Shown: positions 14,448-16,500 of the stretch, piece by piece | How positions within the stretch are numbered: position 1 is the first letter of the stretch | Layout of the letters: each line of letters starts with the position of its first letter | Source of the DNA: an uncultured Rhodobiaceae bacterium | GTDB taxonomy: Bacteria > Pseudomonadota > Alphaproteobacteria > Parvibaculales > Parvibaculaceae | Length of the DNA: 64,000 bases | Reading direction: 5' to 3' | Assembly: GCA_913057645.1 (NCBI GenBank) | Contig: CAJXOU010000009.1 | Location: 1 to 64,000 of the forward strand | Notes under the pieces: model-generated | What the model saw: only the letters and a program-made list of their open reading frames with translations | The model's database searches: none | Told to the model about the DNA's origin: nothing | Position numbers and translations under genes: made by a program

Positions 14448-14975
14448 CTAGCGGACGGGCCTCACTGGATTGCTGCCGTCCCAGCCGATGGCGGCCTTGC
14501 GGATGTGTTCGAAGAACGGCCCCTTCGAGCCGCTGATATCCGACATTTCGATCACGGTTCCGGGATGCGTCTCGGTGTCGAAATAGACGAAGCGGCCCGG
14601 GGCGCCGCCGATCTGCCCTTCATGGCCGACCTTGTAGCCTGCCGCAATCGCGCGGTCGTAGGCGGCCTGGTAGTCGGTCGTCCAGTAAGACATGTGCTGC
14701 AGCCCTTCGCGCCCCGCATTCAGGAAATCCAAATACATCGACGGTGCGTCGTTGCGCTGCTGGATGAGTTCGATCTGAAGGTCGCCCGTGTTGCCGAGGG
14801 CGATGCTCATCTCGACCGGCGAGGGTTTGCCCTTGTAGGTGAACCAGTCGCATGTCACGCGGTCGATGTAATAGAACGGGCCGACGCCGAGGACTTCCGT
14901 CCAGTGCTTCAGCGCCGCCTCGATGTCGCGCACGACATAGCCGTTCTGGCAGACCTTCCCGAAAAAGCGGCTCAT
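14448..14975 (-). CDS. VOC (glyoxalase/dioxygenase fold) family protein
   Basis: A 175-residue vicinal-oxygen-chelate protein with paired beta-alpha-beta-beta-beta modules. Landmarks include NGYVVRDIEAALKHW at residues 11-25, GPFYYIDR, an LGNTGDLQIELIQ strand carrying the expected Glu ligand, LQHMSYWTTD with a possible metal His, and a final VIEMSD with another Glu. Related proteins include glyoxalase I and methylmalonyl-CoA epimerase-like enzymes; the substrate is unknown. It lies 14 bp downstream of ccdB and may be read through from the toxin-antitoxin promoter. Confidence 0.82.
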   Translation of the reverse strand: MSRFFGKVCQNGYVVRDIEAALKHWTEVLGVGPFYYIDRVTCDWFTYKGKPSPVEMSIALGNTGDLQIELIQQRNDAPSMYLDFLNAGREGLQHMSYWTTDYQAAYDRAIAAGYKVGHEGQIGGAPGRFVYFDTETHPGTVIEMSDISGSKGPFFEHIRKAAIGWDGSNPVRPVR

Positions 14976-14989
14976 GTTTCCTGTCTCCG

Positions 14990-15307
14990 TCAGATGCCGG
15001 TCACGAGGAAGTCGACCGCAGCAATGATGTCGTCGCGCCGGCTTGCAAGGGACATTACGATGTCGCCGCCGAGAAAGGACGAAGAGATGCCGGCGATTTC
15101 AAGCGTGGACAGGACGAGCTTCAGTCCCTCGATATCGAAAACCGGATTGAGCCGCGAAATCGGCAGCTCTACGCGCGACAGAGGGACAAGCGGGGCGACG
15201 ACGCGCAGTGTGCGGGTTGCGATCTGGTCGTGCTGGAGAAGCAGGAAGTAGGGGATGGCCTCACGGCTGGCCGCATGTTTGTTCCGGTAGACGTCGAATT
15301 GCGCCAT
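14990..15307 (-). CDS. ccdB: CcdB family toxin
   Basis: A 105-residue protein aligning by eye with CcdB: a MxQFDVYRN start, VVAPLVPL in the second strand region, LNPVFDIEG in the middle, SLASRRDDIIAAVDFL near the C-terminus and a terminal T-G-I. CcdB of the F plasmid poisons DNA gyrase, and its last residues W-G-I are needed for that. Here the Trp position is Thr, as in several chromosomal homologues. The gene starts 10 bp after ccdA. Confidence 0.85.
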   Translation of the reverse strand: MAQFDVYRNKHAASREAIPYFLLLQHDQIATRTLRVVAPLVPLSRVELPISRLNPVFDIEGLKLVLSTLEIAGISSSFLGGDIVMSLASRRDDIIAAVDFLVTGI

Positions 15308-15317
15308 TCAAGTATCC

Positions 15318-15539
15318 TCAGAAACGGCGCAGCCCGTCGCTCCATATACCGTCCCGCTCAATCCGGCGATTGAAAGCCTCAATGGCTTCCTTGTTCTCTT
15401 CTTGCCAGCGGCGGCGCTCCTCCTCACGGGACCTTTCCCGAAGGACTTCTTCCAGCGTTGCGGACAGGTTGATTTCCATCTCCTTCGCCTTCGCGAGGAG
15501 CTCCGCATCCACCGACAGATTGACTGCTTTCTTTGCCAT
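15318..15539 (-). CDS. ccdA: CcdA family antitoxin
   Basis: A 73-residue protein. The N-terminus is a ribbon-helix-helix DNA-binding fold (KAVNLSVDAELLAKAKEME, residues 4-22). The C-terminal toxin-wrapping tail ends NRRIERDGIWSDGLRRF, matching the CcdA pattern of an acidic/basic helix followed by W/F-D-x-R-x-F. Two starts are possible, ATG 15545 (MRM-AKK) or ATG 15539; both lie within the operator repeat. It would bind CcdB and repress its own promoter, with CcdB as corepressor. Confidence 0.88.
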   Translation of the reverse strand: MAKKAVNLSVDAELLAKAKEMEINLSATLEEVLRERSREEERRRWQEENKEAIEAFNRRIERDGIWSDGLRRF

Positions 15540-15584
15540 GCGCATGATATATGCGCATATATCATGCGCATCAAGTATGCGCAT
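15538..15584. promoter_or_regulatory. ccdAB operator: four ATGCGCAT octamers at exact 13-bp spacing
   Basis: ATGCGCAT, itself palindromic, occurs at 15538, 15551, 15564 and 15577, each separated by 5 bp (GATAT, ATATC, CAAGT). The first three form a perfect 34-bp palindrome (15538-15571). The array covers the ccdA start codon and predicted promoter. Ribbon-helix-helix antitoxins bind short palindromes cooperatively along such arrays. Confidence 0.88.
15546..15574 (-). promoter_or_regulatory. Putative ccdAB promoter, possibly leaderless
   Basis: On the minus strand, TTGATG (15574-15569) and TATATC (15551-15546) are 17 bp apart. The expected start of transcription, about 7 nt further, coincides with the A of ATG at 15539. 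The mRNA may therefore be leaderless; no Shine-Dalgarno sequence precedes this ATG. Confidence 0.5.
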
Positions 15585-15607
15585 CAGCCGGAAGGGGCGG
15601 CGGATGC

Positions 15608-15635
15608 TTGACGCGCGGCCCTTTTCCCTTATAAA
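15608..15635 (+). promoter_or_regulatory. Promoter for rpmI-rplT
   Basis: TTGACG at 15608-15613 and TATAAA at 15630-15635 are 16 bp apart, the best sigma-70-like match in this region. The implied leader is about 130 nt, long enough for the L20-type autogenous control known in other bacteria. Confidence 0.65.
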
Positions 15636-15773
15636 TCCGCGCCTTCGGGGTGGCCCGGCCTGTAGGGCATGCCGTGACCGCCCGTAATGCCAAGACCCGG
15701 ACCCGCCACCTTCCGAATTCTTCAATGAATTCAAGGTCTTCAAGGGCAGGTTCTACAAAACACGGAGAGCAAA

Positions 15774-15980
15774 ATGCCCAAGCTGAAGACCAAGAGTGGC
15801 GTCAAGAAGCGTTTCAGCTTCACCGCCACCGGAAAAGTGAAGCGCGGCCAGACCGGCAAGCAGCACGGCATGATCAAACGGACCAACAAGCAGATCCGCA
15901 ACCTGCGCGGCACGACGCTCGTCGCCGAGCCCGATGCCAAGCGGATTGTGAAGATTTTCGCGCCCTACGGCCTGAAATAA
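15774..15980 (+). CDS. rpmI: 50S ribosomal protein L35
   Basis: A 68-residue basic ribosomal protein that binds 23S rRNA in the large subunit. It has the family start [14 protein letters not shown], the KHHG-like segment written here QHGMIKR, and a lysine/arginine-rich middle. A CGGAGAG ribosome site is 6 bp before the ATG. It is the first gene of rpmI-rplT. infC, often the gene directly upstream in other bacteria, is 12 kb away. Confidence 0.97.
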
Positions 15981-16016
15981 CCGCTTAGGTCCCATTTTCT
16001 TTCGAGGAGAATTCTC

Positions 16017-16373
16017 ATGTCGCGCGTCAAACGGGGCGTTACCGCCCATGCCCGGCACCGCAAAGTCATCAAGAAGGCGAAGGGCTATTACGGCCGCCGC
16101 AAGAATACCTTCCGCACGGCCAACCAGGCCGTCGAGAAGGCCGGCCAGTATGCCTATCGCGACCGCCGCACGCGCAAGCGCAACTTCCGCGCGCTCTGGA
16201 TCCAGCGCATCAACGCCGGCGTCCGCGAGCACGGCCTGACCTATTCGCGATTTATCGACGGCCTCGCCAAGGCTGGCATCGAAGTGGACCGCAAGGTGCT
16301 CTCCGATCTCGCCATCCATGAGCCCGAGGCCTTCAAGGCTCTGGTCGCCCAGGCACAGTCGGCCCTGAAGTAA
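16017..16373 (+). CDS. rplT: 50S ribosomal protein L20
   Basis: A 118-residue large-subunit assembly protein. The typical start [16 protein letters not shown], the [14 protein letters not shown] stretch and a C-terminal globular domain ([22 protein letters not shown]) are all present. In other bacteria L20 also represses its own operon at the mRNA level. A GAGGAGA ribosome site overlaps the palindrome GAGAATTCTC at 16007-16016, immediately before the ATG; this could partly mask the site. Confidence 0.97.
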
Positions 16374-16500
16374 GGCTGCCCTGTCACGACACCAGAGCCG
16401 GTCACCCGTCCGGGGCCCGCATGAGGTTTCATGCGTGCCGCTCTCGGGGGTGAGGCGGATCGCCGGTCGATAGCATCGTTCGCACGCCGTTTCCCTCAGT

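Follow-up and report, generated by a model that had tools for sequence, protein, structure and literature searches.

The locus described here raises the question of what a run of four identical octamers is doing between two divergent sets of genes. Within the window, by which we mean the whole 64-kb stretch of DNA analyzed, a chromosomal ccdAB operon lies on the minus strand and diverges from genes that, judged by their reading frames, appear to be rpmI-rplT; the ATGCGCAT array is situated between the genes (Table 1). The first-pass annotation had taken the array for the ccdAB operator, and the recurrence of both the octamer and its pitch upstream of ccdA favors this assignment. Indeed, sequence comparison strongly supports the operator reading. 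The explanation as a whole, bridging and leaderless start included, is that the array very probably represents the autoregulatory operator of chromosomal ccdAB, fused to its promoter.

Table 1 Features of the ccdAB-rpmI intergenic region and the flanking genes
Feature	Position	Strand	Basis or remark
ccdB, 105 aa, toxin of the gyrase-poison family (by family inference)	14990..15307	-	PF01845, E 2.6e-26, 92.2 bits
ccdA, 73 aa, antitoxin	15318..15539	-	PF07362, E 3.9e-28, 98.1 bits
ATGCGCAT array, four octamers, exact 13-bp pitch	15538..15584	.	Proposed CcdA dimer sites, predicted
Predicted ccdAB -10, TATATC (5-bp spacer preceded by the final T of an octamer)	15546..15551	-	17 bp from -35
Predicted ccdAB -35, TTGATG (ATG shared with an octamer)	15569..15574	-	TTGA[TC]G in 11/13, TGGATG in 1/13 genus loci
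Predicted divergent rpmI-rplT promoter, TTGACG-N16-TATAAA	15608..15635	+	23 bp beyond the array

Adjacent genes of the CcdA and CcdB families, antitoxin first and both scoring above the curated cut-offs, constitute a CcdAB type II toxin-antitoxin module. The monomer model of CcdA (pLDDT 87.5) contained helices at 12-20 and 25-48, with the N-terminal strand not assigned. A fold search against solved ribbon-helix-helix (RHH) repressors gave weak matches (CopG, E 2.2; Arc, E 8.7), and an F-type CcdA of known structure was retrieved by sequence (E 1.4e-4). In MetJ, Arc and CopG, tandem RHH dimers read short palindromes by a beta-strand; these proteins are not known as antitoxins, and their sites and pitches are different. 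For the F-plasmid CcdA, residues 4, 6 and 8 touch DNA and the core site is GTATAC.

The octamers occupy positions 15538-15545, 15551-15558, 15564-15571 and 15577-15584, exactly at the 13-bp intervals given by the first-pass annotation, and they are the sole four copies of ATGCGCAT in the window. Their number is unremarkable (mean of 2.2 in dinucleotide shuffles, with four or more in 18 of 100). The three overlapping 13-bp pairs, however, had no counterpart in 100 shuffles, so that it is the 13-bp register, not the octamer number, that makes the array unusual. No further exact 13-bp pair was found in the rest of the 3.75-Mb genome. Three copies had also been described as a perfect 34-bp palindrome, which we recovered at 15538-15571. 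This palindrome requires two complementary spacers (GATAT/ATATC on the plus strand) that the congener loci do not have; since the 5-bp spacers drift among congeners, it belongs to this genome and not to the system, and the long palindrome was ruled out as a functional unit. This lack of conservation was not part of the first-pass annotation, nor were the proposed bracketing of the -10 by octamers and the start codon position that would imply a leaderless mRNA. The palindrome had further been said to swallow the ccdA start codon. This is true of the A and T of the ATG (15539-15537, minus strand), which fall within the first octamer, but the G lies just outside; a second in-frame ATG (15545-15543) is located entirely within the octamer.

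A search of related genomes for the octamer and its spacing, as the annotation had proposed, bore out the association with ccdA. CcdA was present in 13 of the 27 genomes searched from the window's genus, its own included. In 12 of the 13 loci octamers were found at positions -6, -19 and -32 relative to the ATG, none of them with more than one mismatch, while a fourth at -45 was exact in two of these 12, carried one mismatch in seven and two to six mismatches in three. Thus three or four sites with at most one mismatch were retained in 12 of 13 genus loci, counting the window. The remaining locus, L007 of congener G008, had intact ccdA and ccdB genes, and the whole array and the promoter were gone in this single assembly; the same gap also deletes the usual rpmI -35. 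In a scan of the genus, pairs with no or one mismatch were restricted to ccdA-bearing genomes among the matches listed (14 of 27 genomes). The same array and start were encountered in the Parvibaculum records L100, L141 and L167, which makes it probable that the window belongs to Parvibaculum.

To look beyond the genus, we searched for the pattern ATGCGCAT-N5-ATGCGCAT without regard to genes. It occurred in 7 of 337 genomes of the class, the reversed control giving none; two of the seven belonged to the window's genus, and in the other five the pair directly adjoined a CcdA-like frame, which in one case contained a stop. When spacers of 0-14 bp were compared in 318 genomes, spacer 5 yielded eight pairs in six genomes, all known ccdA loci, and the other 14 lengths gave 15 pairs altogether with at most three each (reversed control, three over all spacers). 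When about 85,000 species genomes were scanned, at least 119 stretches with the pattern emerged. Among the 119 matches listed, 85 were positioned just upstream of ccdA, as called by an HMM built here (E 1e-3 or better, pair 1-99 bp from the domain start). These 85 were assigned to Alpha- (46), Gamma- (19) and Betaproteobacteria (7), the former Deltaproteobacteria (6) and Myxococcia (1), with six unranked; one phylum-ranked record among the listed ccdA matches was an Acidobacterium. The annotation's proposal was hence borne out across several classes as well.

The 34 listed matches away from ccdA include nine Streptomyces-type loci (L081, L095, L096, L107, L113, L123, L145, L166, L173), where the pair precedes an apparent LacI-type gene. 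In these loci a VSQ[AT]TVSLVL motif follows the pair at a distance of 111-164 nt, the LacI-type regulator being named by eye, and in several the pair is extended to TAATGCGCATTA. They point to independent use of ATGCGCAT, so that another protein family is probably able to use the octamer. Such loci, together with the capacity of the 34-bp palindrome to fold, could be taken to mean that the array acts as a structural or RNA element, such as a hairpin or attenuator, or as the site of an unrelated regulator, found at ccdA by chance. We consider this highly improbable because most of the listed gene-blind matches are at ccdA, because it is the octamers and not the long palindrome that are conserved, and because the array, given the predicted start site, would not be transcribed with ccdA. 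Consistently, an RNA element was ruled against, no Rfam match at gathering scores being present in 14900-16400. In two gammaproteobacterial MAGs (L088 and L103), tandem runs of several octamers were noticed inside reading frames or at their ends, away from ccdA; the rest of the 34 were scattered sites. Of 19 viral contigs with the pattern, L281 was the sole CcdA-adjacent one, and the single viral ACACGTGT pair (L265) was not at CcdA.

Approaching the operator assignment from the protein side, we compiled 136 ccdA loci from protein and family searches alone; loci found through the DNA pattern were left out, and some weak family matches are absent from the set. Removal of four duplicates, three loci without recognition strand and two with fewer than 100 upstream bases (L014 and L016) left 127, and the octamer was sought in 195 bases per locus. 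The loci were classified by the strand residue that corresponds to the Thr of F-plasmid CcdA. Asn was found in 104 of them (11 being congeners), which had an exact octamer in 74 cases, a one-mismatch octamer in 17 and neither in 13, L007 included; a site with at most one mismatch was thus present in 91 of 104. Loci with Ser (14) had no exact octamer and one with a single mismatch, and those with other residues (9) had two of each. In Asn-class loci with an exact octamer, a partner with at most one mismatch lay at 13 bp in 48 loci, at 26 bp in 13 and at 39 bp in seven, any other distance reaching no more than four. Within the protein-chosen set, four in-register copies were confined to the window's genus; the 93 non-congener Asn-class loci carried three exact octamers in 11 cases, two in 39, one in 14 and none in 29. 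Furthermore, an order-wide search with a Ser-class query uncovered eight new Asn-class loci, all with the octamer (four exact, four with one mismatch). As in a CcdA operator, the repeats are palindromes that lie in the ccdA promoter and are conserved with the gene.

The array is interleaved with the predicted ccdAB promoter. The -10 takes the form TAnnnT in 11 other genus loci. In the 83 non-duplicate loci among the pattern matches listed, TTG starts 16 bp before octamer 1 in 40 and at any other place in at most seven; the first spacer position is A in 75% and the fifth is T in 70%, and in the bases flanking the pair outside no letter exceeds 34%. These frequencies point to a consensus TTGnnn-N17-TAnnnT. 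In this consensus the spacer, preceded by the final T of octamer 1, would make up the -10, which would thus be bracketed by two octamers. A generic promoter scan reported neither the minus-strand ccdAB promoter nor the rpmI promoter; our claim for the former is based on conservation, not on the scan. The rpmI promoter elements were likewise present in 10 of 13 genus loci, the misses being L007 (deletion) as well as L014 and L016 (contig ends). As the array ends so close to the predicted rpmI -35, and as the same rpmI-side sequence adjoins ccdAB in congeners, the array might instead serve rpmI-rplT, or both promoters, with CcdAB occupancy tuning the expression of ribosomal-protein genes and pheST. 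This appears improbable: elsewhere the octamer unit accompanies ccdA in other surroundings, congeners without ccdA had no pair with zero or one mismatch among the matches listed, and the predicted rpmI core promoter lies clear of the array.

For the operator of ccdAB we propose the following mechanism. One CcdA RHH dimer would bind each ATGCGCAT and read it via the N-terminal beta-strand KKAVNLSV. At a pitch of 13 bp the dimers would step by about 90 degrees round the helix, with CcdB bridging them; at 10.4-10.5 bp per turn, the four sites span about five helical turns by arithmetic. The first-pass annotation had argued that 13 bp is not a full turn and that successive dimers would be rotated, in line with the arithmetic (about 1.25 turns) and with the spiral model for F as outlined in an excerpt of a review (PMC3920265). 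The bridged CcdA-CcdB chain would cover the -35 and -10 elements together with the transcription start, closing the array, and repression would show conditional cooperativity, being relieved by excess CcdB. Only 23 bp separate this putative operator from the rpmI promoter, and cross-talk between toxin-antitoxin occupancy and the ribosomal-protein genes is possible.

The start of ccdA is tied to the same geometry. The ATG follows the predicted -10 by 6 nt and coincides with the last octamer in 12 of 13 genus loci, and no ribosome-binding site was visible in the 20 bases before the ATG in genus loci. Because transcription is predicted to begin at the start codon and a ribosome site is not visible, the ccdA mRNA of the Parvibaculum group is probably leaderless. 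Considering that start sites are predicted only and that an in-frame ATG lies upstream in the same octamer, the mRNA may nonetheless possess a leader, or translation may start elsewhere, in which case the start-in-octamer geometry would be meaningless for translation. We judge this to be unlikely in view of the constant distance between -10 and ATG, the missing ribosome-binding site and the loci L010 and L016, which lost the first in-frame octamer ATG and kept the second. Among the 85 listed pattern ccdA loci, an octamer ATG is in frame in 23, and in 12 of the 85 no other ATG or GTG is available in frame ahead of the RHH. Of these 12, four have the sequence of the window's genus; the eight with a different sequence include Oricola, Sphingobium and Quisquiliibacterium.

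The recognition strand varies along with the site. Asn7 was invariant across an alignment of 57 CcdAs, picked for completeness and difference from the 85 listed pattern loci plus the window, and Asn occurred in all 84 listed pattern-locus CcdAs with a readable strand. Over 132 loci, an octamer with at most one mismatch was detected in 94 of 107 Asn-class loci versus 6 of 25 others (Fisher p 7e-10). On a tree, five independent pairs on supported branches were available, the octamer agreeing with Asn in an average of 1.1 of them and disagreeing in 0.7; fewer than six informative pairs cannot reach significance, and the residue code is thus inseparable from shared ancestry. Other strands went with other palindromes: CACGTG was found in seven of eight Thr-Val-Ser-(Val/Leu)-Thr loci, five of which had it paired at 12 or 13 bp; all three KHRVSVTV loci carried GTATATAC. 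Among Asn-class loci either palindrome was present in 2 of 107, compared with 11 of 25 among the others. Exceptions were L227 (same site as L303), with Asn, no octamer and a one-mismatch GTATATAC, and L039, with Thr, two exact octamers and a ccdA containing an internal stop. The data suggest a residue-to-octamer recognition code, strong in raw counts and to be treated as a lead. On a broader reading, possible though rather doubtful, proteobacterial CcdAs would have in common a 13-bp (sometimes 12-bp) ladder of palindromes through the promoter; a few beta-strand residues would set the palindrome, and the start codon would have moved into the last octamer in several lineages. Asn plus Ser/Thr would then read ATGCGCAT, Thr-Val-Ser-Val-Thr would read CACGTG, and the F-like Arg-x-Ser/Thr-Val-Thr would read GTATATAC-like sites. 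If so, exchanging one to three residues would redirect the antitoxin, and one 8-bp word would be operator, transcription start and start codon simultaneously.

Most of what is known about the ccdAB operator comes from one plasmid. In F, ccdAB is autoregulated and CcdA-CcdB spirals along about 120 bp, as summarized in the review excerpt (PMC3920265); an excerpt of a second paper quotes eight sites in the operator and describes bridging by CcdB with release at high toxin (PMC3757116), and CcdA alone binds weakly according to part of a third (PMC10135005). As in F, a CcdA family antitoxin is combined here with several sites in the promoter-operator. Unlike the F-type CcdA with its Thr, the window-type CcdAs have Asn; the F-type strand is KQRITVTV compared to KKAVNLSV here, the array does not classify as an F-type operator, and the F-type locus L202 lacks ATGCGCAT even at one mismatch. 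In the review's account (PMC3920265) the F hexamer is located downstream of the -10, whereas octamers bracket the predicted -10 here, and in contrast to F so described, our sites are exact and strictly 13 bp apart, with the start codon inside in this group. Another geometric parallel is YefM-YoeB, for which excerpts of PMC3920265 and PMC4803016 describe two short palindromes whose centres are a fixed 12 bp apart and one of which covers the -10; this spacing is required for cooperative binding and conserved among genomes. YefM-YoeB differs in its antitoxin fold, its TGTACA core and its two sites.

Among the matches listed for ATGCGCAT in the open-licence full-text literature, no paper by its title tied the octamer to ccd or another toxin-antitoxin operon, and one paper alone, on insertion sequences and CRISPR by title, combined TGCGCA with antitoxin palindromes. 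Searches of the same literature for CcdA together with GTATAC gave none, and those for ccd operators, leaderless antitoxins and RHH specificity gave no title naming such an operator among the matches listed. While ccdAB autoregulation is already known in F, the octamer word, its pitch, the promoter interleaving, the embedded start and their spread are new as far as seen in that literature. A short exact word with a fixed pitch in several bacterial classes offers a general, searchable operator for the CcdA family, and indicates that repressor sites and promoter elements are able to share identical bases. With it, two questions can be put to the test, namely which amino acids determine the specificity of RHH proteins and whether an antitoxin mRNA begins at its own operator, and the clean natural variants with one to four sites are suited to studies of cooperative toxin-antitoxin assembly on DNA.

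Finally, the congeners revealed two types of CcdB at the same rpmI-side site, alike at 35 to 45 of 105 positions (ungapped). The loci L008 and L009 match at 53 of the 60 bp upstream and share the first 19 CcdA residues; the toxin-binding C-terminal half of CcdA is alike at 17 of 37 residues and CcdB at 38 of 105. Cassette exchange of the toxin type at one rpmI-side site (window 14990-15539, L005-L016) is the probable explanation, with operator and DNA-reading strand staying coupled while the toxin specificity probably changes.
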